Assembly: GCF_014645315.1 (NCBI RefSeq)
Contig: NZ_BMLQ01000002.1
Location: 186,001-250,000 of the forward strand
From: Citricoccus zhacaiensis
Lineage (GTDB): Bacteria; Actinomycetota; Actinomycetes; Actinomycetales; Micrococcaceae
DNA length: 64,000 bases
Reading direction: 5' to 3'
The first letter of the stretch is position 1. Each line of letters starts with the position of its first letter. The notes below the pieces were generated by a model. The model saw only the letters and a program-made list of their open reading frames with translations, was not told where the DNA came from and ran no database searches. The position numbers and the translations under genes were made by a program. Of the stretch, positions 1 through 14,530 are shown piece by piece.

Positions 1-526
1 TGGGAAGGGTATCAACCGGTCCCGCGCCCTCCTGTTGCATGCCCTGTGGCACCGGTGCCCCAGCGCGCGGGACCAGCAACCACACGCCAACGAGGGTGGT
101 GGCCGCCAAGGCCAGAAGTCCGGTCCACCGCCGCCGGTTGGCGGGGCCACCACGGACCAGGAGCACGACGACGGCGGCCCCGACCAGTGCGACGGGCGCG
201 GCCCACAGCAGCCAGCCGTAACCGGTGTGGGGCGGTGCCAGCAGCACCTCATCTCCGTAGCGCTCGGCGAACCACGCCTGGATCTCATGCGCTGAACGGC
301 CCTGTCTGACCTGCTGCTCCACCGTCCGCCGCATCGCATCGGACAGCAGGGCGCTCGAATCGGCGATGCTCTCCCCGGCGCAGGTGGGACAGCGCAGTGA
401 TTGGGAGACTTCGCGGGCCGTGTCCTCCGCCGAGACCGGGCCAGAATCCGTCGCGGCGGACCACAGTCCCAGGATCGCGAAGATCCCGATGGCCACGGCC
501 ACAGACCACGCCAGCACCCGCCTCAT
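1..526 (-). CDS. ccmH: CcmH, System I cytochrome c maturation thiol-reductase (C-terminus off window)
   Basis: CcmH is a membrane-anchored thioredoxin-like partner that keeps apocytochrome CxxCH cysteines reduced for heme attachment outside the membrane. The reading frame, not interrupted to base 1, has an N-terminal membrane segment (about residues 5-22), then the family hallmark RCPTC (C46, C49), then two further hydrophobic segments near residues 105-125 and 140-160. Length is at least 175 residues, so it is already at or above a usual CcmH length and may continue into a CcmI-like tail. Its ATG overlaps the stop of ccmG by ATGA, so it is translationally coupled and last visible in the run. 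The missing ccmA, ccmB and ccmD could lie just left of the window. Confidence 0.85.
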   Translation of the reverse strand, partial: MRRVLAWSVAVAIGIFAILGLWSAATDSGPVSAEDTAREVSQSLRCPTCAGESIADSSALLSDAMRRTVEQQVRQGRSAHEIQAWFAERYGDEVLLAPPHTGYGWLLWAAPVALVGAAVVVLLVRGGPANRRRWTGLLALAATTLVGVWLLVPRAGAPVPQGMQQEGAGPVDTLP

Positions 527-1056
527 GGTTCTTCCTCTTCACTCACAGAGGTGCCGTGGACGAGGGGAACGATGACGGAATCAATCCAGTCCTGGTCCAC
601 CGCACCGAACCGGTGGGCGGCGATGGTCCCGTCCCGGTCCACCACGAAGGTCTGGGGCATCCCGCTGATCCCCCACTCGACCGCAAGGGTCCCCTCGGTG
701 TCCACCACACTGGGGAAGCTCACTCCCGTCTCCGCCACGAGGTCCTGGGCCGCATCCGTCCGGTCCCGGGTGTTGATCCCCAGCACGTGCAGGCCGTCGT
801 CACCGTGAGCATCCTGGGCCGCCTCAAGAACGGGCATCTCGTCCCGGCAGGGTCCACACCAGGATGCCCAGGCGTTGACGACGACAACCTCTCCCGCCAG
901 CTCGGCAATGTCTTGGGGATTGCCCTGGAGGTCGAGACCGGACAAGGGCGGCGCCACGCGGGGGCCGTCGTCGGCGCCGTGCTGGCAGCCCGCCAAGACC
1001 AGCACCCCGATGGCCGTTGCCGCCATGGTGCGCACCGATGCCTTGCCGCGCCTCAT
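523..1056 (-). CDS. ccmG: CcmG/TlpA-type thioredoxin lipoprotein
   Basis: A 177-residue extracytoplasmic thiol-disulfide oxidoreductase that would pass electrons to CcmH and apocytochromes. The N-terminus is a lipoprotein signal ending in LAGC (C24), so it is lipid-anchored rather than membrane-spanning as in proteobacterial CcmG. The thioredoxin fold carries the active site WCGPC (C67, C70) in a WASWCGPCRDEMP context, and a cis-proline strand appears as GMPQTFVVD. It ends in a run of acidic residues. The start ATG lies inside the end of ccmF, and its stop overlaps ccmH, so all three are coupled. A general TlpA/ResA role is possible, but the position between ccmF and ccmH argues for cytochrome c maturation. 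Confidence 0.88.
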   Translation of the reverse strand: MRRGKASVRTMAATAIGVLVLAGCQHGADDGPRVAPPLSGLDLQGNPQDIAELAGEVVVVNAWASWCGPCRDEMPVLEAAQDAHGDDGLHVLGINTRDRTDAAQDLVAETGVSFPSVVDTEGTLAVEWGISGMPQTFVVDRDGTIAAHRFGAVDQDWIDSVIVPLVHGTSVSEEEEP

Positions 1057-3020
1057 GCCCGCTGTCCCACCGGCGCAGGATCTGAGCGAGGGGACGGGCG
1101 CGCTGGTGCGGCACGACGACTGCGCGGCCAACCGGCGATGGCTGCGCCGAGGATCATGATGCCCGCTGACGTCCAGAGCCAGCTGACGAGGGGGTTGACC
1201 GCCAGACGGAGGGTGACAAGCCCGGACTCCTCGTCCACGTCCAGGAGGGTGACGTAGACGTCGCGCAGCAGCTCGCTGCGGATCTGCGGTCCCGCGAGCA
1301 TGGTGCGCTCTGTTTCGTACCAGCGCAGTTCCGGCTCCACGACGGTGACGAACTCCTGCCCCTGGCCCAGCGCCACCTGGGCGGCCGCCACGCTGCGGCG
1401 TCCCTCGTCCCGGCCATCGAGTCCGATCACCGTGACCGTTGTCTCCCCGGCCGTCACCGTCCCCCCGACGGGGACGCTCTCCTGGGTGACCGTGCCCAGT
1501 CCACCGCCCAGAACGGCCACGGCAGCCACGGCGATACCGGTGTGGGCGACCCACGCGCCGACGGCGAGCCGGTCGCGCCGGCGTCGATCGGATGCCACCA
1601 TAGCGAGGCTGGCCACGGCGAAAGCGGCCAGGCCGGCGCTGACGGCCAGCCACACCTCGGAGAAGATCAGGGCGACCGCGCCCAGGCAGGTCAGTCCGGC
1701 CAAGGCCGGCAGGCGCATACGGCGTGCCGTCGAGCGCCACGTGCCGGTACGCACCGGCAGCCACGGTCCGAGCACCATCATGACGAGCAGAAGGAGTGCG
1801 AGTGGAGCCAGTGTCCGGTGGTACCACGGCGGACCGACCGACAGTCGCTCACCCGTGGTGGCCAGCAGGATCGACGGGAGCGTCGTGCCCACCAGCACGA
1901 CGAGGGTGACGAGGACCAACAGCGTCCGGTTGACCCGGAGGGCGGTGGACCGGGACACGAGCGACGGCGTCGAGGTGTCCCCCAGTTCACGGCGGCGCCG
2001 GTGGACCAGGACCGCCCACGGCACGAGGGCGGCCACCACGATGACCAGTAACGCCGGTCCCAGCGGCGATGTGGTGAACGCATGGATGCTCTCCACGAAT
2101 CCGGACCGAGTCAGGAACGTCGCCAACAGCACGAGCACGAAGCTGGCACCGGCCAGTCCGGCCGCCCACAGTCGCCATGCGCCGACACGGGCCCTCGGAG
2201 CCACCGTGTGCAGCACGGCCGTGGCGGTGAGCCAGGGCAGCAGGGAGGCGTTCTCCACCGGATCCCAGGCCCAGTAGCCGCCCCAGCCGAGGACGGCGTA
2301 GGACCACCAGGCACCGAGGACGATCCCGGCGGTGAGCAGGATCCACGACACCAGGGTCCACCGGCGCAATCGAGCCGCCCAGGCGGCATCCATCTGCCGG
2401 GTGACCAAGCCCCCTAACGCGACCGCATAGGGAACAGCCAAACCGAGGAAGCCGGCGTAGAGCAGCGGCGGATGCACGCCCATGGCCACGTGATCCTGGA
2501 GCAGAGGGCTGGGCCGGGCGGATACGGCACCGTCATCCACCGTGAAGGGGGACGCCATCAGGGCCACGATGGCGAAGGCGACCGTGGTCAGGCTCAGGAC
2601 CGAACCGACGACACCTCGGCTGCGTTGCGAGGTGTCAGCAGCATCCCGGACAGCGAGGGCCGAGACAACAGCCAACACGAGCAGCCAGAGCAGCAGCGAT
2701 CCCTCCAACGCGGACCACAGCGCGGTGATGCGGTAGTAGACCGGCAGTTCCGGTCCGGACACCATGGCCACGAAGTTCAATCGCGTGTCGTGGGATACCA
2801 GCGCGACCTCGACGAGCGCCACCGCGGCGACCGCAGCGGCCAGTGCCAGTCCAGTCATCCACTGCCCGACCTTCGCCAGCTGACGACCACGTCCGGCTCC
2901 AGTAGTAGAGGGGCCGGCTACGCGCACGGCCTCCGCCCGGGCAGCGGCGGCCCAGACGATGGCACCGGTCAGCGAGGCGGCCAGCACGAGGATCAACAGG
3001 ACGGTGCCCAGCACGGTCAC
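1053..3020 (-). CDS. ccmF: CcmF, cytochrome c heme lyase
   Basis: A 655-residue polytopic membrane protein that ligates heme, delivered by CcmE, to the CxxCH of apocytochrome c. It has about fifteen hydrophobic segments. The tryptophan-rich signature of the heme-handling superfamily is present as LGWGGYWAWDPVENAS, preceded by WWSY, near residues 240-260. Family histidines are seen in GVHPPLLYAG and in the LHTVAPRAR segment. A large extracytoplasmic loop before the last helix matches the family. Length is typical of CcmF. It overlaps ccmE upstream (ATG inside the ccmE end) and ccmG downstream by 4 bases, so translation is coupled along the whole run. Confidence 0.93.
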   Translation of the reverse strand: MTVLGTVLLILVLAASLTGAIVWAAAARAEAVRVAGPSTTGAGRGRQLAKVGQWMTGLALAAAVAAVALVEVALVSHDTRLNFVAMVSGPELPVYYRITALWSALEGSLLLWLLVLAVVSALAVRDAADTSQRSRGVVGSVLSLTTVAFAIVALMASPFTVDDGAVSARPSPLLQDHVAMGVHPPLLYAGFLGLAVPYAVALGGLVTRQMDAAWAARLRRWTLVSWILLTAGIVLGAWWSYAVLGWGGYWAWDPVENASLLPWLTATAVLHTVAPRARVGAWRLWAAGLAGASFVLVLLATFLTRSGFVESIHAFTTSPLGPALLVIVVAALVPWAVLVHRRRRELGDTSTPSLVSRSTALRVNRTLLVLVTLVVLVGTTLPSILLATTGERLSVGPPWYHRTLAPLALLLLVMMVLGPWLPVRTGTWRSTARRMRLPALAGLTCLGAVALIFSEVWLAVSAGLAAFAVASLAMVASDRRRRDRLAVGAWVAHTGIAVAAVAVLGGGLGTVTQESVPVGGTVTAGETTVTVIGLDGRDEGRRSVAAAQVALGQGQEFVTVVEPELRWYETERTMLAGPQIRSELLRDVYVTLLDVDEESGLVTLRLAVNPLVSWLWTSAGIMILGAAIAGWPRSRRAAPARPSPRSDPAPVGQRA

Positions 3021-3433
3021 GGTGTCACCTCGGCGGGCGCACGGTACTCGTTGGAGTGGCGCAGCACGATCTGGTCGGCGGCGACCACACCGTCCTCGCT
3101 CAGCGTTCCGTCGACGACGGCGCCCTCCCCCTCACGCACGACGTCCGGCAGTCGGCCGGGGTAACTCACCGTGACATCCGTGGCTCCATCGGTGAGTGTC
3201 ATGGTCGATTCCTCGACGGTCTCGACCACCGATCCCGGCATGACCATCCCGCCCAGCCGCACTGAATCCCCCGGTTGCGTGGTTCCCACCAGTTCGCTGG
3301 GTGTCCGGAAATAGGACATACCGTCGTCGGCAGCCGCCACCCCGAGTCCGGCCAGGCCGGCACAGGCGGCGAGCAGTAGGCCCAGCCGCGCTGTCCGCGA
3401 CGTGATCCATGAGGGCCTGGCTCGATCGGTCAT
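3017..3433 (-). CDS. ccmE: CcmE, heme chaperone
   Basis: CcmE binds heme covalently and shuttles it from CcmC to CcmF. This 138-residue protein has one N-terminal membrane helix (about residues 15-33) and a small OB-fold domain. The heme-attachment motif near the C-terminus reads LRHSNEYRAPAEV, giving the ligand histidine H126 and the conserved tyrosine Y130 (HxxxY). This is the histidine form known from proteobacteria, not the cysteine form (CxxxY) reported in some archaea and Gram-positives. ATG overlaps the ccmC stop by 4 bases. There is no separate ccmD between ccmC and ccmE. Confidence 0.92.
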   Translation of the reverse strand: MTDRARPSWITSRTARLGLLLAACAGLAGLGVAAADDGMSYFRTPSELVGTTQPGDSVRLGGMVMPGSVVETVEESTMTLTDGATDVTVSYPGRLPDVVREGEGAVVDGTLSEDGVVAADQIVLRHSNEYRAPAEVTP

Positions 3434-4143
3434 CGGCGCAGCAGCTCCCCTCCGGTGGTGGTCGATGGCAGCTTCGGTTCGGGTAGGGGCACGCCTCGCG
3501 TGGCCGCCTCCCGCAGTGTCACGGCGCGATATCCCACGGCCCACGCCGTCAGCAGGGTGAAACCAAGCACGGCCGCAGCCAGCGCGACGCCCATGAGGGG
3601 GTCGATCGGCGGACTCAGGCTCGGGGCCAGGATCGTCGGAGGCTGGTGCAGGGTCCGCCACCACAGCACCGAGAAGTGAACCAGCGGCACGGTGAGGAAT
3701 CCGACGACGCCGATCACGGAGGCCGACTGACGGCCGCGGCTGGTCCGGACCAGCCCGCTGAGGGTCAGGTAGACCACGTACACCAGGCCCATGGCAACGG
3801 TGGTGATGACGCGTGCGTCCCAGGCCCACCACGTTCCCCAGGTCAGCGCTCCCCAGATGCTTCCGGTGAGCAGGGTCAGGGCGGTCAGGAGGACGCCGGC
3901 TTCGGCTGCAGCGCGGGCCACGGCCCACGCCCGCTCACTGCGGATGAACAGATGCCGGAGGCTGGCCACCAGGACTGCACCGAAGCAGAGGAAGGCGCTC
4001 CAGGCGGCGGGCACATGGAGGTACATCAGCCGTTGCGCCTCTCCCTGGACGGCATCGGCGGGTGCGATGAACAGGGCGAACGGCAGAGTGAGGACGCAGA
4101 CGATCAATCCGGCTGCCAGCAGCTTCTGCTGCCCCGCACTCAT
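3430..4143 (-). CDS. ccmC: CcmC, heme exporter/handler
   Basis: CcmC loads heme onto CcmE at the outer face of the membrane. This 237-residue protein has six predicted membrane helices. The WWD-type signature WGTWWAWDAR lies at residues 102-111, and heme-ligand histidines fit H43 (YLHVPAAW), H156 (LVHFSV) and H166 (LHQP). An upstream in-frame ATG would add about 34 residues, but they would be antisense-like and the chosen ATG overlaps the stop of the cytochrome gene (ATGA), as elsewhere in this unit. The CcmAB ABC transporter that normally releases holo-CcmE is not encoded next to it. Confidence 0.92.
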   Translation of the reverse strand: MSAGQQKLLAAGLIVCVLTLPFALFIAPADAVQGEAQRLMYLHVPAAWSAFLCFGAVLVASLRHLFIRSERAWAVARAAAEAGVLLTALTLLTGSIWGALTWGTWWAWDARVITTVAMGLVYVVYLTLSGLVRTSRGRQSASVIGVVGFLTVPLVHFSVLWWRTLHQPPTILAPSLSPPIDPLMGVALAAAVLGFTLLTAWAVGYRAVTLREAATRGVPLPEPKLPSTTTGGELLRR

Positions 4144-4526
4144 TGGTCGTAGAGGTAGGCGGCGATGTCCCGGGCGTCCTGCTCGGTGACCCCCATGTTC
4201 GGCATGGCGGTGCCCGGCACGATGTCTTGCGGGTTCTTTATCCATCGGATGAGCTCCTCAGGGCGGTTGGGCAATTGACCGGCGATGTAGATCTGGTCAT
4301 CGAATCCGGTGAGATCCGGGCCGATGGTCCGGGAGACGCTCTGGACTCCCGGAACGGTGTGGCAGGAGGCGCAGCCGTACTCGATGATCGCCGCGCTTCC
4401 CGCATCCGGATCACTTCGGGGCACGGGGCCGGACCCGTCTGTGGTGCCAGGCCCGTGATCGCAGGCGGCCACCGCCAGCAACGTGGCGACCGCAGCCACG
4501 GCAATAGCGGCTCTTCGGACGTTCAT
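4140..4526 (-). CDS. Monoheme cytochrome c lipoprotein
   Basis: A 128-residue c-type cytochrome anchored by lipid. The signal peptide ends at C22 (AVAAC). The single heme site is CASCH (C52, C55, H56), and the sixth ligand is probably a methionine in GTAMPNMG (M108 or M111). The fold is a small class I type (GPDLTGF, LIRWIKNPQ, ARDIAAYLYDQ at the end), much like the cytochrome domain at the end of the subunit II gene of the same unit. It probably carries electrons to the oxidase and is an obvious client of the Ccm proteins encoded directly downstream. Start ATG overlaps the upstream stop as TGATG. Confidence 0.88.
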   Translation of the reverse strand: MNVRRAAIAVAAVATLLAVAACDHGPGTTDGSGPVPRSDPDAGSAAIIEYGCASCHTVPGVQSVSRTIGPDLTGFDDQIYIAGQLPNRPEELIRWIKNPQDIVPGTAMPNMGVTEQDARDIAAYLYDQ

Positions 4527-4915
4527 CAGCAGACCTCCAGGACGAGGGGCATGGCCATGATCAGCACGATGCCGAAGCCGAACAGGACGGCCAGGGCACA
4601 GCCGCTGAGGCCCAGGAAGGACATGAGCGGCGCACGGGCACGGTGCCCAGCACGTAGCGCCCGCACGCTGAAGAAGCCGCTGACGACCGTGATCAGCAGC
4701 AGCACCGCGTTCATCCCCATCAGCACCAGGAGCAGCGCCGTCTCGGGAGCCGGGGCCCCCGCGGTCGCCGACGCGGTGCACGTGAAGTCCTGCAGCAGCC
4801 AGGACAACCCCAGCGAGGCGAGCCAGGCGACCGGCGGGATCAGGAGGGGAAGGGCGGCCTGCCACGCCCCGCGCGTCGTCTCGTCGGGCCGGTGCACGAA
4901 GGAGGGAGTAGGCAT
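4526..4915 (-). CDS. Small membrane protein of the oxidase cluster, function unknown
   Basis: A 129-residue protein with three hydrophobic helices (around residues 18-42, 58-83 and 97-122) and no motif I recognise. It sits 1 base after the fused oxidase subunit I-III gene and overlaps the cytochrome c lipoprotein gene, so it is very likely an accessory or assembly subunit of the oxidase. It is not a recognisable CtaF or subunit IV. It has one cysteine in the middle and one as the last residue. Confidence 0.7.
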   Translation of the reverse strand: MPTPSFVHRPDETTRGAWQAALPLLIPPVAWLASLGLSWLLQDFTCTASATAGAPAPETALLLVLMGMNAVLLLITVVSGFFSVRALRAGHRARAPLMSFLGLSGCALAVLFGFGIVLIMAMPLVLEVC

Positions 4916-4916
4916 C

Positions 4917-7424
4917 TCAGATCACCGCCACCGGGAGCAAGTCCGTGGCGACCCAGCTCAGGGCCCAGGCGATCAGGACGGCAACCCACGCAATGGCCGC
5001 GTTCTGCAGCAGCAGCGCCGGCCTCAGGTCCCGCACCTGCATCACCCGGGCGATCATCGCGGCGACAGTGGTGCCCAATGCGAACAGCACCGTCAGTGCC
5101 TGGGTGCCCAACAGCAGCATCACTGAGGAGTCGTAGGCGTGAGCGGTCGGGTCCTTGCCGGCTTGGACCCAGATCGTCAGGAGGAGTGCCAGGAGCACGA
5201 CGCCGGCCACCAGCGCGATCCCGGCGGCCACCAGATGCGCCCGCCGGGAGCCGGCGGGCGCGTGTTGCGTCATACCGTGGCGTGACCCCTGGCGGCAGGC
5301 CAACAGGCCCACGATCGCGCACAGTCCCCCGGCCGCGGTCAGCAGCGGTGCACCGAGCGGTTCCTGCGGCCAGTTGCCGGCATTGACTTGGAGGAAGAGC
5401 GCGCTCAGCACGATCGTCGCCATCCCGACGGTCAGCACGGCCACCAGGCACCAGGCAGCCCACCATCCGATCGCCCTGGATCCGCGGGCTTCGATGGGGT
5501 ATCGCCCTCCGACTGGAGCAGTGGAGGCCTCGCCGTTGTCGATCTCTACCTTGCGCGCCCAGCCCAGCAGGCCGATGGCGACGACCGTGATGCCCACGAA
5601 GGCGATGGGGTAGATCTCCAGTAGCAGCCCGAGGGCGATGACGATGAGCCCCCCGGCGGGCAACAACGGCCAGACGGTCGGCGACGCCAACCGCATCGCC
5701 CCGTCCGGCGATGCCGAGAGCACCGTGGTCAGCGGGGAGACCCGGACCGTGGTCGGCCGGTGGTCGAAGGCGTCGCGCATCGTACGGTGGGATTCCGTGG
5801 TGTCCCGGTCCGGCGCCCACAGTGGATGACGGTCCGTGACCACCGGGATCGTGGGCCAGTTCGACGAGGACGCTGGCGACTCCGTCGCCCATTCCAGGGT
5901 GTCCCCGCCCCACGGATCCCGCGGCGCTGGGCGACCACAGCGCCACGCGTACACCAGGGCCACCGAGAAGATGAGGACGCCGACGGCCATCACGAAGGCC
6001 CCGATGGTCGAGAGGAGGTTCACCGTTTCGACGCCCATGTACTCGTCATAGGTGTACACCCGGCGCGGCAGGCCCCACAGGCCCGTGAGGTGCATGGGAA
6101 AGAAGGTGAGGTGGAAGCCCAGGAAGATCAGCGCGAAACTGGCGTATCCGGCCATGTCGTTGACCATGCGACCGGTGAACTTCGGCCACCAGTGGTACAG
6201 GGCGGCGAAGACGGGGAAGAGCAGACCGCCGATGATCACGTAGTGGAAGTGCGCCACCACGAAGTAGGTGTCATGGACCTGGGAATCGAAGGACGCCGAC
6301 GCGACCATCACGCCGGTGATGCCTCCGGCCACGAAGGTGATGATGAAACCCAGGGCGAAGAGCATGGGCACCGTGAACCTCGGGCGACCGGACCACAGCG
6401 TGGCGATCCAGGCGAAGATCTGGATGCCGCTGGCCAGTGAGATCGACATGCTCGCCGCCGTGAAGAAGGTCAGTGTCAGCGGCGGCAAGCCCGTGACGTA
6501 CATGTGGTGGACCCAGAGCCCCAGACTCATGATGGCCGTCACGATGACCGCGACCACCACGAACGGGTAGGCGACCAGTCGGTGACGGGCATGGATGGGG
6601 ATGACGTGACTCATGATGGCCGCGCCCGGCAGGAACATCACGTAGACCTCAGGATGGCCGAAGATCCAGAACAGGTGCTGCCAGAGCAGCGGGTCTCCAC
6701 CGGCATCCTGGTTGAAGAAGGCGGTACCCACCGATCGGTCGAGCTCCAGCAGCAGCGAGGCGACAATCAACGGCACGAAGGCCACGATGATCAGTACCGC
6801 CACCGAGAGCATGGTCCAGGCGAAGATGGGCATCTTGTCCAGGGACATCCCGGGCGCCCGGGTCTTGAGCACGGAGACGATGATCTCGATGGCCGCGCCG
6901 ACGGCGGCGATCTCGGCCAGGGTGAGCCCGAACAGCCAGATGTCCATCGACTTGTCCGCAAACTCCGGACCGCTGAGGGGAACGTAGGCGAACCAACCGG
7001 CGTCCGGGACGAGGTCCACGAGGAAGCTGCCGTAGAGCAGGAGCCCGCCGAACAGATAGCACCAGTAGTTGAAGACGTTGTACCGCGGGAAGGGCATGTC
7101 CCGGGCTCCGATCTGCAAGGGAAGCAGATAGGTGGCCAGTCCTTCGATGAAGGGTATGGCGAACAGGAACATCATGGTGGTGCCGTGCATGGTGAAGAGC
7201 TCGTTGTAGCTCTCGGCGCTGAGGAAGTCGTTCCCCGGCTTGGCCAGCTGCGTCCGCATCAGCATGGCCTCGAGGCCGCCGATCAGGAAGAAGGCGAACG
7301 CGGTGATCATGTAGCGGGTGCCGACCGCCTTGTGCTGCACACTGGTGAAGAAGCCGCGGAGACCGGGGGGCTTGTCGTAGATGCGCTCGAACTCTGCGGC
7401 GCTGATCGCCATGTCCTGGGCCAT
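4917..7424 (-). CDS. ctaD: Cytochrome c oxidase subunit I fused to a subunit III-like domain
   Basis: An 835-residue heme-copper oxidase catalytic subunit. Residues 1-520 are subunit I with all metal ligands: H80 and H394 for the low-spin heme, H392 for the high-spin heme, and H257, H306, H307 for CuB. GHPEVY (257-261 region) contains the E259 and cross-linked Y261 expected of A1-type enzymes. After an acidic, proline-rich linker (about 525-590), residues 590-835 form about seven more helices resembling a reduced subunit III. Such I-III fusions are known from Thermus caa3 oxidase. It lies 3 bases downstream of the subunit II gene. Confidence 0.93.
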   Translation of the reverse strand: MAQDMAISAAEFERIYDKPPGLRGFFTSVQHKAVGTRYMITAFAFFLIGGLEAMLMRTQLAKPGNDFLSAESYNELFTMHGTTMMFLFAIPFIEGLATYLLPLQIGARDMPFPRYNVFNYWCYLFGGLLLYGSFLVDLVPDAGWFAYVPLSGPEFADKSMDIWLFGLTLAEIAAVGAAIEIIVSVLKTRAPGMSLDKMPIFAWTMLSVAVLIIVAFVPLIVASLLLELDRSVGTAFFNQDAGGDPLLWQHLFWIFGHPEVYVMFLPGAAIMSHVIPIHARHRLVAYPFVVVAVIVTAIMSLGLWVHHMYVTGLPPLTLTFFTAASMSISLASGIQIFAWIATLWSGRPRFTVPMLFALGFIITFVAGGITGVMVASASFDSQVHDTYFVVAHFHYVIIGGLLFPVFAALYHWWPKFTGRMVNDMAGYASFALIFLGFHLTFFPMHLTGLWGLPRRVYTYDEYMGVETVNLLSTIGAFVMAVGVLIFSVALVYAWRCGRPAPRDPWGGDTLEWATESPASSSNWPTIPVVTDRHPLWAPDRDTTESHRTMRDAFDHRPTTVRVSPLTTVLSASPDGAMRLASPTVWPLLPAGGLIVIALGLLLEIYPIAFVGITVVAIGLLGWARKVEIDNGEASTAPVGGRYPIEARGSRAIGWWAAWCLVAVLTVGMATIVLSALFLQVNAGNWPQEPLGAPLLTAAGGLCAIVGLLACRQGSRHGMTQHAPAGSRRAHLVAAGIALVAGVVLLALLLTIWVQAGKDPTAHAYDSSVMLLLGTQALTVLFALGTTVAAMIARVMQVRDLRPALLLQNAAIAWVAVLIAWALSWVATDLLPVAVI

Positions 7425-7427
7425 GGG

Positions 7428-8504
7428 CTACTCCAGACTTTCCAGGTAGGCCAGCAGAGCCTGCAGCTCATCCCCGGCCAGGTCCGTTCCGGGCATTTCG
7501 TTCCCGGGCTTGATCGCTTGGGGATCGACGACCCAGGCGGCGAGGTTTCCGGGGTTGTTCGGCAGCGTACCGGCTGCCAGCGTGTCCCGGCTGGCCAGGT
7601 GGGTGAGGTCCGGTCCTTCACGTCCCTGCGCCTCGGTCCCGGAGATGGCGTGGCAGTACACGCAGGAGGAGGACATGAACACCTCGCGCCCGCGCGCCAC
7701 CAGTTCCGAGTCCTGCTCGGCCGGTGTGTCCTGGGTCGAGACGTCGGGTTCTCCGGACGGCACTGCTGCTGGTTCCGCACCCGGTTGGCCCTGGGCTGCC
7801 AGCCATCCCTCGAACTCTGCCGGCTCATGGACGACGACGATGAACCGCATCAGGGCGTGCTGCATGCCGCAGTACTCGGCGCACTGGCCCCAGTAGGTGC
7901 CAGGTTCGTCCGTCTCGAGCCACATGCTCGTGGCCCGGCCGGGCACCATGTCCGTCTTCCCGCTGAGTTCAGGCACCCAGACGCTGTGGACGACGTCGTC
8001 CGAGGTGAGCTCCAGACGGACCCGCTCGCCGGTTGGAATATGGATCTCGTTGGCGGTGACGACGCCGTGCTCGGGGTACTCGACCTCCCACCAGTACTGG
8101 TGACCAGTGACCGTGATGGTCCTGCCGTCCACCTCTTGTCCAGGGTCCGTCTCCTGCAGCACCCACACCGATTGCACCGTGATGCCGACGATGATCACGG
8201 CTGGGATCACCGCCCCGGCCAGGGCTACGAAGAGGATGGCACGCCCGCCCCCACCTTCGCCTCGGCTCTCGCCCGTTCCATCCTTGCGACGCCGACGCAC
8301 CAGCGTGGCCACCATCATGGCGACGACGATGACCCATACCGCTGTTCCGGTCCAAAGCATGGTCTGCCAGTGCACGTCAATGGCCTCAGCACTGCGTCCG
8401 ACCGGGTTGAGCGGGGACTGCTCCTCGGCGGCAGCGCAACCGCCCAACAGCACCGCCCCCGCGGCTGCCGCGATCACGGGAAGCGATGTTCGACGCCCGG
8501 TCAT
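7428..8504 (-). CDS. ctaC: Cytochrome c oxidase subunit II with C-terminal cytochrome c domain (caa3 type)
   Basis: A 358-residue lipoprotein (lipobox LLGGC, C23) with two membrane helices (about 48-70 and 88-115) and a cupredoxin CuA domain. CuA ligands are complete: H173, C208, E210, C212, H216 and M219. A flexible linker (about 235-265) leads to a cytochrome c domain with CVYCH (C281, C284, H285) and probable axial M337. This makes the enzyme a caa3 oxidase that accepts electrons through its own heme c. The ATG overlaps the stop of the cupredoxin gene by 4 bases; a longer upstream reading exists but would run through that gene. Confidence 0.94.
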   Translation of the reverse strand: MTGRRTSLPVIAAAAGAVLLGGCAAAEEQSPLNPVGRSAEAIDVHWQTMLWTGTAVWVIVVAMMVATLVRRRRKDGTGESRGEGGGGRAILFVALAGAVIPAVIIVGITVQSVWVLQETDPGQEVDGRTITVTGHQYWWEVEYPEHGVVTANEIHIPTGERVRLELTSDDVVHSVWVPELSGKTDMVPGRATSMWLETDEPGTYWGQCAEYCGMQHALMRFIVVVHEPAEFEGWLAAQGQPGAEPAAVPSGEPDVSTQDTPAEQDSELVARGREVFMSSSCVYCHAISGTEAQGREGPDLTHLASRDTLAAGTLPNNPGNLAAWVVDPQAIKPGNEMPGTDLAGDELQALLAYLESLE

Positions 8505-8929
8505 GGCTGCTCCACCCGGATAGTCCCTACCATCTGCTCCCCTTCTCCGTGGTATTCGCACCAGTAGTAGTGGTCACCTGCGACCTGGAAGACGTGGGCG
8601 AACGTCTCGCCCTCCAGCAAGCGTCCGGAGTCGAACTCGGCGGCTCCGCCGGGAACGGGCCGCTGGCCGGGCAGGAGGGCACCGCCACTGGTCACCGTGT
8701 GCGCTTGAGGCTCGCTGTTCGTCCACCGCACCTCGGTGCCGGGGGCGACGACGAGGGTGGCCGGCGAGAAACCGTCGGCCGTGATCTCCACCACGGCGAC
8801 CTCGGGGCCCCCGGGGGCGGCGCACCCGGCCAGCAGCAGCGCAGCGACGGCCGCAGGAGCGAACGTCAGGAGGCGGTTCCTCGGGCTGGCGCCGACCACC
8901 ACGGTGTCGACCGGGTCGTGTTGTCTCAT
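8501..8929 (-). CDS. Cupredoxin (plastocyanin-like) lipoprotein
   Basis: A 142-residue type 1 copper protein, probably an electron carrier. Copper ligands are visible: H77 in PQAHTVT, C124 and H127 in YYWCEYH, and M133 as axial ligand. The lipobox is LLAGC (C36). The segment ahead of the hydrophobic signal is oddly long (about 18 residues) and its first 15 residues resemble the N-terminus of the GMC dehydrogenase encoded next door. Ribosome binding site GGAGG lies just ahead of the ATG. Position between a periplasmic dehydrogenase and a terminal oxidase suggests it bridges the two. Confidence 0.87.
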   Translation of the reverse strand: MRQHDPVDTVVVGASPRNRLLTFAPAAVAALLLAGCAAPGGPEVAVVEITADGFSPATLVVAPGTEVRWTNSEPQAHTVTSGGALLPGQRPVPGGAAEFDSGRLLEGETFAHVFQVAGDHYYWCEYHGEGEQMVGTIRVEQP

Positions 8930-8938
8930 CTCGCCTCC
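8901..8938. repeat. 38-bp direct repeat, copy A (start of cupredoxin gene)
   Basis: Matches 10,709-10,746 at 33 of 38 positions. The copy covers the ribosome binding site, start codon and first ten codons of the cupredoxin gene. Confidence 0.8.
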
Positions 8939-8967
8939 CCTTCTGCCACCGGTCCTCGCGCGCGGCG

Positions 8968-10737
8968 CTAGACGAGCAGCTCTCCTGGATCGTTGAGGTA
9001 CCTGTCACGGATGGCCTCGGCGGTGCGGAAAGCGAGCGCACCCACGGTTCCGGTCGGATTGGCCCCCGGGTTCTGCGGGTAGAGCGCGGCACCGGTGACG
9101 AAGACGTTGGGGGTGTCCCACACCTGGCCATAGCTGTTGGTGACGCTGTTGCCCGGGTCAGTGCCCATGATCGCCCCGCCGGTCGGGTGGGTGCTCTGGT
9201 ACTGGTCGATGCGGTAGTCACCGAGCTCGCGCTCCACGACGACCTCGTCGGCTCCCATCGCGCGGACGATCTCCTCGCTCCGGTCGGCCAGGAAGCGGTG
9301 CATGTTGCGTTCGTTGTCCCGGAAGTCGAAGGTGATACGCAACATGGGCAGGCCCCACTCGTCCTTGTAGGTGGGGTCAAGGTCCAGGAAGTTGCCCTCG
9401 TAGGCCGGGCTCCAGCCCTCGTAACTGAGCTCACCGACGCTGTCCCAGGACTGTCCCAGCATCGCCTTCCAGTCCGCACCCCACTCTCGGTCGGCAAAGC
9501 CGTCGAGTAGGCCGTCGATCGAACTGACCGGTTCTCGCTGGCCCCCTTCGGACTGGATGCGTGCCCCGCCAATGAAGTCGAGGTCACTGTGGTCGAAATT
9601 GTCGCTGTTGAAGTCGTGGATCTGGGCGTTCGTGCACCCGTTGCCGGTGAACAGGTTGAACCTGCGGTTCCGCCACAATCCCCGCGCTGGCGCCTGGTTG
9701 ATCTGGTAGGTGTAGTTCCGCCCCACCATCCCGCGATCGTTGCCGATGCCCTCGGGGTGGGCGTCGCTGCGGGCCAGCAACAGATTTCGCACGTTTTCGA
9801 GGGTGAACGCGGAGCACACCACGATCTCGGCCGGTTGGAAGTGCTCGCGGCCGCGTGAATCCACGTAACGCACGCCGGTGGCCCGGCCATCGTCAGCGGT
9901 CTCGATACCCAGCACCCGGCTATCGGTCCGCACCTCATAGCGTCCGGTGGCCAATGCCGGCGGCAGCCAGGTGGTCAATGGGCTGGTTTTCGCTCCGACC
10001 TCGCAGCCGTATCGGGTGCAGAAACCGCAGTACAGACATGCAGACCGGACGTTGCCGTACGGGTCGGTCCACCCGCGCGAGAGGATGCCGGCCGGCGTCG
10101 GGAAGGGGTGCAGGCCCAAGTCCTGGCAGGCATCCATGTACAGCTCGCCGAAGGCCGTCCGTTCCAGCGGCGGGTTCGGGTACGGACGCTTGCGCGGGCC
10201 CTCGAAGGGATTTCCGCCGGGGAGGATCCGGCCATCCAGGTTGCCGGCCTTCCCGGAGACGCCCATGTCGTACTCCAGGGCATCGTAGTAGGGCTCGAGG
10301 TCCTCGTAGCCGATCGGCCAATCCTGGATCGTCATCTCGGCGGGGATGCGGTCGCGCCCGTAGCGTTCCTCGTTGACGCTCCGGACGTGGAAGTCGTCGG
10401 GCAGGAATCGCCACGTCAGCGCGGTCCAGTGCACCATCGCACCGCCCAGCCCCTGTCCCGGGTGGAAGCTGCCGTACTGCCGGTAGGGCAGAGACGGTGC
10501 GTTGGCGTTCGGCCGCCAGGTCCACGTGGACCGGTTCAGGTCCTGCATCAGGGCGTAGCGGTTGTTGAACCGGAGACTGTCGTGGTTATGGGCGAAGTCG
10601 GGGTACGTCCACTGCGCCGGTCCCTGCTCGATGGACACCATCCGGTGGCTCGTGCTGGGGAGGATCCGGGCTGCGAGGATCGAGGCCGTCATTCCGCCAC
10701 CGATGGTCACGATGTCGACCGGGTCGTGCGTTCTCAT
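8968..10737 (-). CDS. GMC-family flavin dehydrogenase, catalytic subunit
   Basis: A 589-residue GMC oxidoreductase (FAD), related to gluconate, fructose and glucose dehydrogenase catalytic subunits. The dinucleotide-binding start is VTIGGGMTAS (about 10-19), and the C-terminal active-site pair is H517 (STHPTGG) and N560 (NPGANPTGT). Four cysteines, C234, C237, C240 and C245, form a cluster of the kind that holds a [3Fe-4S] center in FAD-glucose dehydrogenase of Burkholderia. It has no signal peptide, so it should be co-exported with the Tat-targeted partner encoded 16 bases upstream. Start at MRTHDPVD is supported by GGAGG just upstream; an earlier ATG would add 25 residues. Substrate (sugar or alcohol) cannot be told. 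Confidence 0.88.
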   Translation of the reverse strand: MRTHDPVDIVTIGGGMTASILAARILPSTSHRMVSIEQGPAQWTYPDFAHNHDSLRFNNRYALMQDLNRSTWTWRPNANAPSLPYRQYGSFHPGQGLGGAMVHWTALTWRFLPDDFHVRSVNEERYGRDRIPAEMTIQDWPIGYEDLEPYYDALEYDMGVSGKAGNLDGRILPGGNPFEGPRKRPYPNPPLERTAFGELYMDACQDLGLHPFPTPAGILSRGWTDPYGNVRSACLYCGFCTRYGCEVGAKTSPLTTWLPPALATGRYEVRTDSRVLGIETADDGRATGVRYVDSRGREHFQPAEIVVCSAFTLENVRNLLLARSDAHPEGIGNDRGMVGRNYTYQINQAPARGLWRNRRFNLFTGNGCTNAQIHDFNSDNFDHSDLDFIGGARIQSEGGQREPVSSIDGLLDGFADREWGADWKAMLGQSWDSVGELSYEGWSPAYEGNFLDLDPTYKDEWGLPMLRITFDFRDNERNMHRFLADRSEEIVRAMGADEVVVERELGDYRIDQYQSTHPTGGAIMGTDPGNSVTNSYGQVWDTPNVFVTGAALYPQNPGANPTGTVGALAFRTAEAIRDRYLNDPGELLV

Positions 10738-10746
10738 CTCCCCTCC
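10709..10746. repeat. 38-bp direct repeat, copy B (start of GMC dehydrogenase gene)
   Basis: Partner of 8,901-8,938. It spans the GGAGG ribosome binding site, ATG and first nine codons of the dehydrogenase gene. Confidence 0.8.
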
Positions 10747-10753
10747 TGACTGC

Positions 10754-11746
10754 TCAGTGGCTGTGGACGCCTTCACGTGGCTGCTCGAGGGCCTCACGGC
10801 CGCCACCGGCACGGTCTGGGTTCATCGGGGTGAGCCCCTCCATGGACGTCGGCTGCTTGTCGGTGCCGTGCATCATCTCGTGCGGTGAATAGGAGCGCTG
10901 GGCTCCCGGCCAGCCGATCAGTGTCCAACCGGCGAGATTGCGGTTCCCGCCGTACGCCGGATCGGAGAACATCCCCTCGATCGTGTCGATGCGCACCGTG
11001 TTGAAGAATGATCCCGGGTCCGCCTCCCCGAACAGGTCTTCCGCCTGGTCCATCTCAGACTCCGACGGGCCGCTGCTGCCCGTGTCCTCACCGGCATCGG
11101 CCTCGGGGTCCGCGCCGCTTCCGCTGCCGCCCCCCTCGCTGCGCTGCTGCACTCCATCGAGCACCATGAGGAGTTCATCCTGCTGGCCGGCATCGAGATC
11201 GGCGAACATAGACCCAGAACGGGTCTGGGCCAGGCGGTCCACCCCGGCGAGACCGAGACGATAGAGCTCCTGGGGCCCGAGCTCTGCCTGATAGCCGTAG
11301 CGGTACAGCTGGTCCTCGGGCACCGGCACCGACTCGGGGTCCGCTGGCGGCTCCTCGCCGTCCTCATATCCCTGGGCGAAAGGGCCGTGCCGGTAGGTGG
11401 GCTCGGCGAACGCCTCGAACATGTCCAGCTTGCGATCGATGTAGACGGGAACGCCGGCCTGGAGGGCACCCGGGTCATCGTCGTCTCCGGGGATGATCCG
11501 CGCAACCATGGCCTCAAGGGACCGCACCTCCTCCTCGGTGAAGAAGGCGTAGGCGTCCGGGCCGAGGTCCCCCGGCGGTGTGGGTTCCCGATCGGGTGCG
11601 AGGATGCTTTGCTCCTCCGGAACCTCTCGCTCGCTCGACGGCGTGCAACCGGCGAGAGCAAGACCACCGAAGATCGCGGTGGAACCCAGCATCGAGCGAC
11701 GGGAGATCGTGGCTCCGAGAAACGTGCGTTCTCGACCCTGAGTCAT
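10754..11746 (-). CDS. Tat-exported lipoprotein, gluconate 2-dehydrogenase subunit 3 family
   Basis: A 330-residue small subunit of a membrane-associated flavin dehydrogenase. The N-terminus has a twin-arginine motif SRRSML (R16, R17), a hydrophobic core and lipobox LAGC (C34). The domain then reads FFTEEEVRSLEAMVARIIPGDD, typical of the family. Family members act as chaperone and Tat hitchhike carrier for the signal-less GMC subunit. An acidic Ser/Gly-rich insertion lies around residues 198-230. It is the first gene of the 11.7-kb unit; a purine-rich GGGGG sequence precedes the ATG. No multi-heme cytochrome subunit, the usual third partner, is encoded alongside. Confidence 0.85.
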   Translation of the reverse strand: MTQGRERTFLGATISRRSMLGSTAIFGGLALAGCTPSSEREVPEEQSILAPDREPTPPGDLGPDAYAFFTEEEVRSLEAMVARIIPGDDDDPGALQAGVPVYIDRKLDMFEAFAEPTYRHGPFAQGYEDGEEPPADPESVPVPEDQLYRYGYQAELGPQELYRLGLAGVDRLAQTRSGSMFADLDAGQQDELLMVLDGVQQRSEGGGSGSGADPEADAGEDTGSSGPSESEMDQAEDLFGEADPGSFFNTVRIDTIEGMFSDPAYGGNRNLAGWTLIGWPGAQRSYSPHEMMHGTDKQPTSMEGLTPMNPDRAGGGREALEQPREGVHSH

Positions 11747-11996
11747 CGTCGGCCCCCTGACGCCGGCATCGTGGTGACCTTGCGGTTCACGTGATCAGTG
11801 CGTAACAGCTTCCGTGCTAGTTGCCGACGCTAACACACAGGGAATTTTAAGGTTAGCCCCATTCTCCGCTCAGGAACCGCATCGGGCCCGAGGACGGCCA
11901 GGGCACCTCGCAGCGTCCGTCACCGCCCATGCGTCGGCTCCGCTCCGTTACCCTTTCGGTCTTGCTGGTCTTGATCCACCGATCCAAAGCCGTGGA
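11747..11996. other. Intergenic region upstream of the respiratory unit
   Basis: This 250-base gap should hold the promoter of the minus-strand unit that starts at 11,746. An AT-richer patch at about 11,820-11,860 is the likeliest core promoter area, but I cannot assign -35 and -10 boxes with confidence. No open frame here looks like a gene. Confidence 0.4.
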
Positions 11997-12275
11997 TCAG
12001 GACTTATCCGGCGGTGCGGGCGGGTCTCCTGGCTTGTCCGCGGATAGCAGTCGCCGGGCTTCGCTCAGCGCCCAGTCAGCGTAGTCCTTTTCCATTTGTG
12101 CCAGCACCAACAGGTTGGCGATTCGCTGTTCGCGGTACATCCGGGCTGTCGCGTCGGCCACGCTGATCATCGCAAGGACTCGGGCCTGAGCCCGACGGCC
12201 ACGGGCCTTGTGCCTGGTGTCATTCACCTCTGTGTTCCCCAGGATCGTCAGAGCTTCTGTCAACAGATTCTTCAC
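11997..12275 (-). CDS. Small helical protein, function unknown
   Basis: A 92-residue soluble protein, mostly helical, with a basic patch (HKARGRRAQAR) and a proline-rich tail (GDPPAPPDKS). I do not recognise a family. GTG at 12,275 is chosen as start because AGGAG lies 8 bases upstream; an ATG 12 codons earlier has no ribosome binding site. It is transcribed toward the respiratory unit but is separated from it by 250 bases. A short palindrome at 12,303-12,316 lies just upstream. Confidence 0.5.
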   Translation of the reverse strand: MKNLLTEALTILGNTEVNDTRHKARGRRAQARVLAMISVADATARMYREQRIANLLVLAQMEKDYADWALSEARRLLSADKPGDPPAPPDKS

Positions 12276-12302
12276 GTCTCGACTCCTCGGCCCTCCTAGT
12301 GG

Positions 12303-12316
12303 ATACCCCACGGTAT
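12303..12316. promoter_or_regulatory. Short palindrome upstream of the 92-residue gene
   Basis: Inverted repeat ATACC-CCAC-GGTAT, 28 bases ahead of the GTG at 12,275. It could be an operator or part of a promoter (GGGGTAT on the minus strand resembles a stress-sigma -10), but no matching -35 is evident. Confidence 0.3.
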
Positions 12317-12362
12317 ATGCCTCCAGCGGTGACTAGCGTGGTCGGAAGACGGAGATCAGAGA

Positions 12363-12887
12363 TCAGTACCGAGGTGTCGCAGCGGTCGTCTCGGCGGTGG
12401 AGTCCGTCCTGCGCGGCAGGAAGGACAGTGCGACCATGGTCACGGCGAGACCCAGGTGCAGTCAGTTGTCGGCATCGTTGAGCGGCACGAAGTTGGCTGG
12501 CGACTCGTGGCCGATGAACAGGCCGTAGAGCCACAGCAGGAGATAGACGATGCCGCCCCACAGCAGGTAATGCCGTGCCATGGTCCCGGTCCGGGCCAGC
12601 GCCAATCCGGCGATGCCATAGAGCAGATGGACGATGTTGTGCAGGATCGAGACCTGGAAGACCCCCATCAGCATGGCCTCGGAGTGGTGTCCTGCGAACT
12701 GCATGGTCTCGTAGTTGGTGGTGATCCCAGGGATGAACCCGGCGATTCCCACCAGCAGGAAGACCACGCCATAGATCAGCGCGACGATCTGGACCGGGCT
12801 ACGCGTGGAGGTGGTTCGTTCGGTGGTGGAACGGCGGGGGAGAAGGCCTTGTGAGCCGAACTTTGGGGAGGCACGCCGCAGGGCCAT
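12363..12887 (-). pseudogene. DUF4383 membrane protein gene broken by an in-frame TGA
   Basis: DUF4383 proteins are small four-helix membrane proteins of unknown function found in actinobacteria. From ATG at 12,887 the frame gives 141 residues with three helices (SPVQIVALIYGVVFLLVG, VFQVSILHNIVHLLYGIAG, LLWGGIVYLLLWLYGL) and ends NDADN-stop at 12,462. The same frame continues straight through as LHLGLAVTMVALSFLPRR and reaches a second stop at 12,363. Family members have tryptophan (ADNWLHL) exactly where the TGA stands, so a single TGG-to-TGA change has removed the last helix. The full frame would be 174 residues. The truncated product might still be made. The start is tentative because nothing conserved lies before TTSTRSPVQ. 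Confidence 0.75.
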
Positions 12888-13088
12888 GTCCAACTTCTCA
12901 GCTGCGGCGGTGGATTGGGCCTTAGGCCGCGTGAACGGCCTCATTGGCCGGTAGAGAGCTGATCGGCCACATTGACGGGTCCCCCTGCCAGGACCTCCAT
13001 CCGAAATCCGGCGCCAAGGCACCGGCTCGTGAACGAGACGTGCGAGGCCGACGTCGTTGACCTGCTCGTGGCTGCCCCGGCTGCGTCT
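12888..13088. other. Intergenic, no gene seen
   Basis: About 200 bases between two minus-strand genes. It must contain the upstream region of the DUF4383 gene. No clear hairpin or promoter was found. Confidence 0.4.
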
Positions 13089-14111
13089 CTACGCCGAATC
13101 AGCTGGGTCCGGCCGGAGCGGCTCCGGTAGCTGCTCGGTGGGGACGATCACCACGTCGTGGATCTTCCAGTCCAGGTCCAGGCAAGCGTGACGAGCGTCG
13201 ATCAAGCGGTCTACCGTGGCGTCGTCGATGGAATCTGGAACCACGAACGCCTCGACATGGAAGACTTGGCCCTGCTCCCGCATCCGCACGCCGACCTCCT
13301 TGACCCACGGCAGAGCCACCAGGTGGTCCTCGACCTCCCCCAGCAACGGGTGCCTATCCTTCCCCTTCAGGTCGTTGGGTACGGCGTCGGTCAGCGACGA
13401 CAGGGCGCCGCGCAGGTTCTTGACCCCGTCCTGGATGATGTCAAGGGAGATGACGATCGCGGCCACCGAGTCGGCCCACCACCAGCCCATCCCGATGCCG
13501 CCCACGCCCAGGATGGCGGCGGCCGACGACAACCAGTCGGCCTTGTTCATTTGGGCATCGGCATACAACATCTTGTTGTGCAGCTTCGGGGCCAGCTTCA
13601 TCTTCATCCGACCGAGGACCAGGGGCGGAACAAGGCCGGCGGCCAGCACTGCGATCATGAACCAACCCAGCCAGACCGTCTCGCCGAGCACTGCGACGGT
13701 ACCGACCGAGGGATGTTCTGCCTGGATCAGGGAGAGCGCCGACTGCACGAGCAGCAGACCACCGAAGCCCAACAGCGCCAAGGCGGCGAACAGGTAGGCG
13801 AGATCGAAGGACTGATGAAATCCGTACGGGTGTTTGCGCGTGGGACGTTTCGCCACCATCCTGACGGTGACCAGGAAGGCCAGCGGCGGGACCATTTCCA
13901 GGAGGTCCTGGACCCAAGCGGCCTGCATGGCTTGCGAGTTTCCGCTCACCAGCAGCACCAGGGCGACGTCCACCAGCAGGTAGCCCAGCGTTACCCATTC
14001 GAGCGTTCTGGCCCGTTTCAGCGCCCGCGCGACGTCATCGGGCATGTCCTCCTGCGCCGCCGCTGCAGTGGTCATCTCTTCCGCTCCTGCCGGCGTTCGG
14101 CCATTCGTCAA
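13089..14111 (-). CDS. Cation diffusion facilitator-type transporter
   Basis: A 340-residue metal/proton antiporter-type membrane protein. It has six helices between about residues 35 and 240, the family HPYG motif (KHPYGFHQSFD) after helix 2, and a C-terminal cytoplasmic domain (about 250-330). The transport site in helix 5, normally HxxxD, reads DAQMNKADWLSS here, so the histidine is not in its usual place, and the substrate may differ from zinc. An acidic, alanine-rich N-terminal extension of about 30 residues precedes helix 1. A second in-frame ATG at residue 13 is possible. The gene stands alone. Confidence 0.8.
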   Translation of the reverse strand: MTNGRTPAGAEEMTTAAAAQEDMPDDVARALKRARTLEWVTLGYLLVDVALVLLVSGNSQAMQAAWVQDLLEMVPPLAFLVTVRMVAKRPTRKHPYGFHQSFDLAYLFAALALLGFGGLLLVQSALSLIQAEHPSVGTVAVLGETVWLGWFMIAVLAAGLVPPLVLGRMKMKLAPKLHNKMLYADAQMNKADWLSSAAAILGVGGIGMGWWWADSVAAIVISLDIIQDGVKNLRGALSSLTDAVPNDLKGKDRHPLLGEVEDHLVALPWVKEVGVRMREQGQVFHVEAFVVPDSIDDATVDRLIDARHACLDLDWKIHDVVIVPTEQLPEPLRPDPADSA

Positions 14112-14426
14112 AGTGCGCTCACGAGGTCGTCTTCACGGATGGACATTGCCACCTCATCTTCCCGACGTTTTCCGCCTTGTCGGCGTGTCGCTGAGGGTCG
14201 CCAAGCGGTCCCCACCATCGATCCTTTCGGTTATCCGAACTGGCACGTCGCGCAGTTTCTTCGACGCGTAAGACTCGCAAAGTTCCCGAGCGAGCACGAG
14301 CGACCGCCCTATGGCACCCGCAATGGGGCGAACCGGGATCCGAATGGGCTCTGGCCCGGTGGCTGGTTGTCTCGTACGGTAGGCACAGAAGTCGTAGCAG
14401 TAAGTCCGTCTTCACTGCGGACCGGA
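14112..14426. other. Intergenic region between divergent CDF and cold-shock genes
   Basis: Together with the leader at 14,427-14,530 this is a 419-base gene-free stretch. It must hold both promoters. TACGGT at 14,375-14,380 is a possible -10 for the cold-shock transcript. No convincing coding frame is present. Confidence 0.35.
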
Positions 14427-14525: not shown

Positions 14526-14530
14526 CTCAC

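Follow-up and report, generated by a model that had tools for sequence, protein, structure and literature searches.

The described systems that come closest to the locus reported here are dehydrogenases, terminal oxidases, and a cytochrome c maturation machinery. In the flavin adenine dinucleotide (FAD)-dependent three-subunit dehydrogenases of the GMC family, a Gluconate_2-dh3 subunit with a twin-arginine translocation (Tat) signal is followed by the GMC subunit; in this family, the large subunit is known to be exported by its Tat-bearing partner, and the three-gene dehydrogenases with a cytochrome c subunit pass electrons to ubiquinone. The caa3 oxidases with fused subunits I and III, such as that of Thermus (2yev), have a CuA subunit that carries cytochrome c, a CtaG gene nearby, and the GHPEVY motif. 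System I of cytochrome c maturation comprises CcmABCDEFGHI. We analyzed a window (the whole stretch of DNA under study) of 64,000 nucleotides from Citricoccus zhacaiensis (contig NZ_BMLQ01000002.1, positions 186,001 to 250,000), in which one minus-strand operon holds relatives of all of these. With moderate confidence, we interpret this operon as encoding an exoplasmic FAD dehydrogenase of the gluconate-2-dehydrogenase type that would feed its own caa3 oxidase, bypassing quinone.

The operon is a single run of 14 same-strand genes from window position 11746 to −2807, as judged from start and stop geometry. It extends about 2.8 kb beyond the window start, and 12 of the 14 genes are at least partly inside the window. 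In order, the genes encode a Gluconate_2-dh3 subunit (subunit 3), the GMC subunit, a cupredoxin-like lipoprotein, CtaC, CtaD, a 129-residue membrane protein, and a monoheme cytochrome c, followed by CcmC, CcmE, CcmF, CcmG, CcmH with a tetratricopeptide repeat (TPR) tail, a second cupredoxin-like lipoprotein, and a CopD-CtaG fusion. A preliminary description of this DNA had reported eleven or more genes without a promoter-sized gap and with overlaps of 1 to 4 bases at most junctions. This was borne out: the genes that it named are all present on the minus strand with Pfam support, the largest gap is 38 bp, and 9 of the 13 junctions overlap (8 by 4 bases and 1 by 1 base), the spacings in order being 16, 38, −4, 3, 1, and −1, followed by seven of −4. 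No sigma-70-like promoter was found in the two stretches scanned, and terminator-like sites had a frequency near chance; at that level these scans decide nothing, and they were set aside as evidence on transcription. A single transcript would presumably span the operon.

Subunit 3 (10754..11746, minus strand, as are all operon genes) is a protein of 330 residues belonging to the Gluconate_2-dh3 family (Pfam PF13618, E 2.2e-27). By eye, its N terminus has a twin-arginine motif (SRRSMLG) and then a lipobox (LAGC). It had no match in NCBIfam, and the sole result from the PDB was a weak match to an unrelated protein. The large subunit (8968..10737), a GMC-family FAD dehydrogenase of 589 residues (Pfam GMC_oxred_C, 3.1e-19; GMC_oxred_N, 4.7e-08), has no signal peptide that could be seen by eye and is related to the glucose and fructose dehydrogenases in the PDB (6a2u and 7w2j, E of about 1e-31). 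Its NCBIfam matches were all below cutoff and included no equivalog, and therefore no substrate is named. The active-site-like motif STHPTGG is present, and active-site-like residues are kept in the relatives compared; the C-terminal motif has the conserved His, which we take to be catalytic, with Thr at the adjacent position compared to Asn in 6a2u. A four-cysteine motif, CLYCGFCTRYGC (pattern C-x2-C-x2-C-x4-C), aligns with the Cys-rich segment of 6a2u, a segment that presumably binds an iron–sulfur cluster in the solved glucose dehydrogenase. The four cysteines are kept throughout a set of 28 GMC rows, except for one row that is unreadable there, and are absent from some of the more distant GMC proteins in the wider alignment. 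The Cys-rich site is probably that of an iron–sulfur cluster. A near copy of the start of the GMC gene, from its ribosome-site region through about the first 30 coding bases (GGGGAGATGAGA..CACGACCCGGTCGAC), was also seen, with slight differences, at the start of the cupredoxin gene (window 8900-8945 and 10710-10755) and looks like a copied 5′ end; no such copy was seen at the corresponding Myceligenerans junction.

Compared with the three-subunit dehydrogenases, the operon shares the Tat-bearing subunit followed by the GMC subunit but lacks a multiheme cytochrome c gene, having only the monoheme lipoprotein and CtaC; instead, the GMC gene is followed by genes for a cupredoxin-like lipoprotein and an apparently complete caa3 oxidase. 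By this gene content, the subunit 3–GMC pair is a relative of these dehydrogenases and not a member. The plasmids of Azospirillum lipoferum, Deinococcus gobiensis, and Pseudoroseomonas cervicalis have the same first two genes in the same order, with GMC proteins 44-47% identical to that of the window. At those loci, a cytochrome c gene follows the GMC gene and no oxidase is annotated within 8 kb (in gene tables that are incomplete), whereas in the window operon that cytochrome c gene is missing and the cupredoxin and oxidase genes are in its place. Subunit 3 also occurs with a 49% identical GMC on a Thermus thermophilus plasmid (L218 7332-9746) and with a 47% identical GMC on a plasmid of the archaeon Halorussus limi, in both cases without a cytochrome annotated beside it.

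CtaC (7428..8504) is an oxidase subunit II with a CuA domain, a fused cytochrome c (CVYCH), and a lipobox (Pfam COX2, 1.6e-21; Cytochrom_C, 3.3e-11), and it matches TIGR02866 above cutoff. CtaD (4917..7424; 835 residues) consists of subunit I (Pfam COX1, 6.2e-147; TIGR02891 above cutoff), with the Glu and Tyr of GHPEVY present, and a subunit III-like C-terminal part. The fusion of subunits I and III proposed in the preliminary description is upheld by homology, in that this C-terminal part aligns (E 8e-14) with that of relative L007, which matches COX3 (8.4e-09), but not by a match of its own: no COX3 model matched the C-terminal part in the window, nor that in relative L057. The oxidase is a caa3-type family A heme-copper oxidase of a widespread family. 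It shares with the Thermus-type enzymes the CuA subunit with cytochrome c, the nearby CtaG, GHPEVY, and probably, by homology, the I-III fusion, and it differs from them in having dedicated dehydrogenase genes in front and in the replacement of the K-pathway Lys by Gln. Among its nearest relatives (the best 80 of 592), Gln occupies this position in 79 and Ala in one, and the residue is Ile in G066, G108, and G131, three genomes discussed below. The D-pathway Asp position is variable (D in 48, N in 16, E in 10, S in 5, and A in 1 of the 80). We take the aligned positions to be the K- and D-pathway residues; the Lys is present in the other oxidase of the C. zhacaiensis genome and in the PDB chain aligned with CtaD, presumably from Mycobacterium. 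An alignment of the window with 15 of the 80 relatives omitted L016, which has a stop in its translation. The loss of the K-pathway Lys was considered as a novelty of the operon and rejected because it is a trait of the oxidase family that is already in print: the K-channel is lost in parts of family A, and the Lys of canonical A1 oxidases is not required family-wide (PMC8239418).

The strongest evidence that the dehydrogenase and the oxidase belong together is that their pairing recurs. The preliminary description had made its proposal depend on the two parts not always occurring apart, and we found subunit 3, GMC, and cupredoxin genes adjoining caa3 oxidase genes in seven genomes of three lineages: that of the window, Myceligenerans pegani, the Thermomicrobiales genomes G451 and G591, and G066, G108, and G131, which represent one genus. 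In G591, the order is CtaG, cytochrome, subunit 3, GMC, and cupredoxin, and the contig ends before subunits I and II; in G066, G108, and G131, it is subunit 3, GMC, cupredoxin, CtaC, CtaD, cytochrome c, and CtaG. In G108 (L213 7986-11920), two tandem GMC genes were seen in the same operon. Approached from the oxidase side, subunit 3 and GMC genes adjoin the oxidase in 2 of the 80 relatives, M. pegani and a Thermomicrobiales metagenome-assembled genome (MAG), and in three more, a weaker GMC lies at a distance of over 5 kb from the gene for subunit I. Some GMC match is present in 70 of 158 genomes in the class of G451, where 14 loci were fetched (11 close and 3 more distant) and the oxidase was linked in G451 and G591. 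Within Actinomycetota, 15 of 396 genomes, including that of the window, have a GMC at E 1e-80 or better.

Phylogenies of the two partners do not agree with a single origin of the pairing. In a 28-row GMC tree, the eight linked rows (from seven genomes) form one side of a branch (support 95/92); G590 is next to this clade, on a contig too short to judge linkage. In a CtaD tree (46 of 82 sequences kept after thinning at ≥80% identity; GMC pieces shorter than 330 residues were left out of the GMC trees), the window and Myceligenerans oxidases group with those of Gemmatimonadota, Acidimicrobiia, Blastococcus, Nitriliruptorales, and an Anaerolineae MAG (95/84), those of G066, G108, and G131 adjoin this group (94/81), and the Thermomicrobiales oxidase is in a mainly proteobacterial branch (98/94). 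A single clade of the six readable partner oxidases, tested with the genome's own aa3 oxidase left out, was rejected (p-AU 0.0023), as was a clade of the window, Myceligenerans, and Thermomicrobiales oxidases alone (p 0.001). Therefore, the dehydrogenase lineage appears to have met caa3 oxidases at least twice. Because the pairing involves at least two oxidase lineages, it is probably functional. Oxidases of this family are common and mostly stand without a neighboring GMC gene, a point on which the wording of the preliminary description is not supported.

Two small carriers could connect the dehydrogenase to the oxidase. The cupredoxin-like lipoprotein (8501..8929; 142 residues) has a weak Pfam Copper-bind match (7.8e-05) just above cutoff and an NCBIfam plastocyanin match (3e-08) below that model's cutoff, and its copper ligands (H..C..H..M) are present. 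The monoheme cytochrome c lipoprotein (4140..4526) has the motif CASCH (Pfam Cytochrom_C, 2.3e-08). Lipoboxes were seen by eye in both carriers, as in CtaC. The cupredoxin His, Cys, His, and Met are intact in the window, G451, G591, G066, G108, and G131, whereas all four are lost from the Myceligenerans protein (L005 ~6235-6620), and only the Met remains in L165 and L166, two Thermomicrobial relatives in which no oxidase is visible. Between the window and Myceligenerans, differences in the cupredoxin gene by codon position are nearly equal (0.47/0.46/0.56), compared to 0.17/0.13/0.37 for the GMC gene; the GMC and CtaD proteins are 79 and 62% identical, and third codon positions change most. 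The visible Myceligenerans operon, whose contig ends inside CcmH so that a carrier may lie further on, has no separate cytochrome c gene: CcmC directly follows the membrane protein, CtaC has the only heme c site, and the remaining CxxCH is the thioredoxin motif of CcmG. The preliminary description had routed electrons through the cupredoxin or the cytochrome lipoprotein, and in Myceligenerans, this route fails as a general one. Since that operon has neither cupredoxin ligands nor a visible separate cytochrome c, the simplest reading is that electrons may pass directly from the GMC complex to CtaC, with the carriers optional.

In the arrangement that we favor, the operon would provide a short respiratory chain that works on the outer side of the membrane without quinone. 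Subunit 3, with its Tat signal and lipid anchor, would carry the FAD-GMC enzyme out and hold it at the membrane, where the enzyme would oxidize an alcohol or aldose-type substrate. Electrons would move through the Cys-rich, probably iron–sulfur, site to the heme c/CuA arm of the caa3 oxidase, either directly or helped by the cupredoxin and monoheme cytochrome lipoproteins, and the oxidase would reduce O2. CtaG/CopD would supply copper, and CcmC-E-F-G-H would attach heme to the two cytochromes. We infer the export route, the electron route, and the substrate class from sequence.

The heme-attachment genes lie downstream of the cytochrome and encode CcmC (3430..4143; Pfam, 5.1e-24; TIGR01191, 5.7e-44, below cutoff), CcmE with the heme-binding motif HSNEY (3017..3433; Pfam, 1.2e-22, and alignment), CcmF (1053..3020; Pfam CcmF_C, 5.3e-42, and alignment), a CcmG-like thiol-disulfide lipoprotein with WCGPC (523..1056; Pfam Redoxin, 3.5e-22), and CcmH fused to a CcmI-like TPR tail (1..526 and on to −409; Pfam CcmH, 3.7e-28). 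The block shares with System I the CcmC, CcmE (with its His), CcmF, CcmG, and CcmH proteins, the TPR tail of CcmH, and the order C-E-F-G-H; it differs in its location, an oxidase operon in a genome that also encodes System II, and in lacking CcmA, CcmB, and CcmD genes in the operon. All five proteins that the preliminary description called heme-attachment machinery are thus present, but the machinery is incomplete, with no match to CcmB (PF03379) at E 1e-3 in the window's genome, which is 99.98% complete. No CcmA was found in the operon, and no genome search was aimed at this generic ABC ATPase; no CcmD was found between CcmC and CcmE, which overlap by 4 bases, or elsewhere in the operon, the rest of the genome not having been searched for it.

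It was found that the Ccm block is present in two of the seven linked operons, those of the window and Myceligenerans, and absent from the three related operons seen whole (G066, G108, and G131). Among the 80 oxidase loci, CcmC, CcmE, CcmF, and CcmH occur only in Myceligenerans, and a CcmG-like gene also occurs in one other. In the 396 Actinomycetota genomes, CcmE is present in 170 and a CcmB match at E 1e-3 in 198 (179 above cutoff); 167 of the 170 CcmE genomes have both, the CcmB match being weak in at least two of these (G257 and G430). The three CcmE genomes without a CcmB match are that of the window and two MAGs (G070 and G126), which were rejected as further cases because their contigs are cut beside CcmE: in G070, CcmC begins at the contig start, and the G126 contig has no CcmC and ends less than 0.6 kb from CcmE. 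Among the 170, no genome is labeled as nearer than the same phylum except that of the window and G037, which has a CcmB above cutoff. Outside the window's genome, Myceligenerans has one CcmB match below cutoff, a permease beside an ABC ATPase that by eye resembles an ABC-2 drug-export pair, and G451 also has one below cutoff.

Whether a block of this composition works can be judged in part from its conservation. Both carriers of the block retain 26 of the 31 CcmC columns that are ≥90% conserved elsewhere, all 6 such columns of CcmE, and 53 of the 63 in CcmF (CcmG and CcmH had too few rows for such a count). None of the five reading frames is interrupted, and most of their divergence between the two genera is at third codon positions, as under purifying selection. 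Because of this, the block looks like a maintained System I without CcmB. A contrary possibility is that it is a non-working remnant and that System II (ResB/CcsA) matures CtaC and the cytochrome. The genome has no CcmB match and has three ResB genes, because of which System II is probably its ordinary cytochrome c maturation route; neither CcmE nor CcmB gave a match in G066, G108, and G131, whose operons must therefore use another system; and some conserved positions are changed, such as an Asn to Arg in CcmF of both carriers. Given the retained columns and the third-position divergence, we consider a remnant possible but doubtful.

A Ccm block that would work without CcmAB bears on the dispute over whether CcmC or CcmB carries heme across the membrane. 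A 1999 paper is said, by its title, to hold that CcmC may work independently of CcmAB. In published work, the release of holo-CcmE is ascribed to CcmAB (PMC12285233), a case is made for CcmB as the heme translocase, essential and always encoded in the ccmABCD operon (PMC11868835), Methanosarcina is stated to need only CcmABCEF (PMC9084895), and Systems I and II are treated as alternatives in model bacteria (PMC9145763). No report of a System I without CcmAB was found in the open-access literature searched. We put forward only tentatively the joint proposal of a GMC-caa3 supercomplex with optional carriers together with a working CcmC-E-F-G-H lacking CcmAB or CcmD, in which CcmC, alone or with help from System II, would bring heme across the membrane.

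Several findings weigh against a dedicated dehydrogenase–oxidase chain. Each partner also occurs with no sign of the other nearby: 78 of the 80 nearest oxidase relatives have no subunit 3 in the stretch compared, no oxidase is visible at 9 of the 11 close and all 3 distant loci in the class of G451 (several on short contigs) or in 3 of 6 Actinomycetota GMC neighborhoods fetched (GMC ~40% identical), and none is annotated within 8 kb at five plasmid loci, taken from 180 records with a GMC match in a collection with incomplete gene tables. The seven linked genomes come from sampled searches and not from a census, and the evidence for re-pairing rests mainly on the Thermomicrobiales oxidase because those of G066, G108, and G131 adjoin the window's group. 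The four cysteines are also kept in GMC proteins without an oxidase and thus are not special to oxidase-linked ones, and iron–sulfur ligation is judged from the Cys residues only. The genome also has a second, ordinary aa3 oxidase as well as System II, so that other acceptors could serve the dehydrogenase and a different maturation route the cytochromes. Nor does the proposed chain account for the 129-residue hydrophobic protein (4526..4915), an open reading frame with no Pfam or NCBIfam match and a homologue 48% identical in Myceligenerans.

These points lead to an alternative in which the dehydrogenase is quinone-linked and the caa3 enzyme, as an ordinary terminal oxidase, receives its electrons from the general chain, the shared operon serving joint regulation. 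The three plasmid relatives that are three-gene dehydrogenases with cytochrome c, and the many oxidase relatives without a GMC neighbor, are consistent with it. However, the operon has no cytochrome subunit of the kind that would serve quinone, and the association of one GMC clade with more than one oxidase lineage is less well explained by joint regulation alone; we regard this alternative as rather unlikely. That the GMC–subunit 3 pair has an accessory role in assembling the oxidase or handling copper and is not an energy-yielding dehydrogenase, as its position with CtaG, CopD, and two cupredoxin-like proteins might suggest, is highly improbable given that the GMC active-site-like residues are kept and that the same pair occurs elsewhere next to a cytochrome c gene with no oxidase annotated nearby.

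The last two operon genes lie beyond the window start and encode the second cupredoxin-like lipoprotein (−406 to −879; identified by eye, no Pfam match) and the CopD-Caa3_CtaG fusion (−876 to −2807; Pfam Caa3_CtaG, 6e-77; CopD, 8.3e-19). The whole operon is part of an insertion of ~22.7-22.9 kb (window part 1..19915) that is absent from the four same-genus genomes, of seven, compared at this site (G001, G003, G005, and G007), all of which have an empty site. The left border is between −3014 and −2799 and the right border at about 19916. In G001 and G005 (93-94% identical DNA), position −3006 (−3014) joins 19916 (19917) with 220-265 bases between; in G003 and G007, the flanks are joined in the same way, mostly at 70-87% identity and ~1.3 kb apart. 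The rest of the insertion, ~8 kb, has genes for DUF4383, cation efflux, Cu/Zn superoxide dismutase, and thiamine pyrophosphate (TPP)-enzyme proteins. At its far end, on the opposite strand (17918-19708), is a TPP enzyme that by eye resembles pyruvate oxidase and whose TPP domains were identified by Pfam.

No GMC match was found in the seven same-genus genomes, and the best GMC among 58 relatives searched is 38% identical; for these reasons, gain is more economical than loss, and the insertion was probably acquired horizontally. At E 1e-90, the window's own genome was the only one with this GMC among 396 drawn from the order, a draw without Myceligenerans. As for a vehicle, no integrase or transposase was found among ten island and border proteins scanned, no tRNA genes were found at the insertion, no shared 13-mer (direct repeat) links its borders, and a scan of viral contigs with the GMC likewise yielded no evidence of a mobile element. 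When the rest of the insertion was compared by tblastx with Myceligenerans and two Thermomicrobial loci, the part of the output examined had only short, scattered matches, which were put down to high GC content and disregarded.

The preliminary description knew of no system with this exact composition, and we likewise found no description of it in the open-access literature searched, with subscription journals mostly outside that search. The operon is built from parts of known families, and as a combination, together with its maturation block lacking CcmB, it is a real and unusual respiratory module. A bacterium with CcmC, CcmE, CcmF, CcmG, and CcmH but no detectable CcmB makes the heme-carrier question testable. 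If the reading that we favor is true, extracellular oxidation of a sugar or alcohol would be wired directly to an energy-conserving oxidase, skipping the quinone pool, and this wiring would have come about on more than one occasion, with one dehydrogenase lineage joined to different oxidases.

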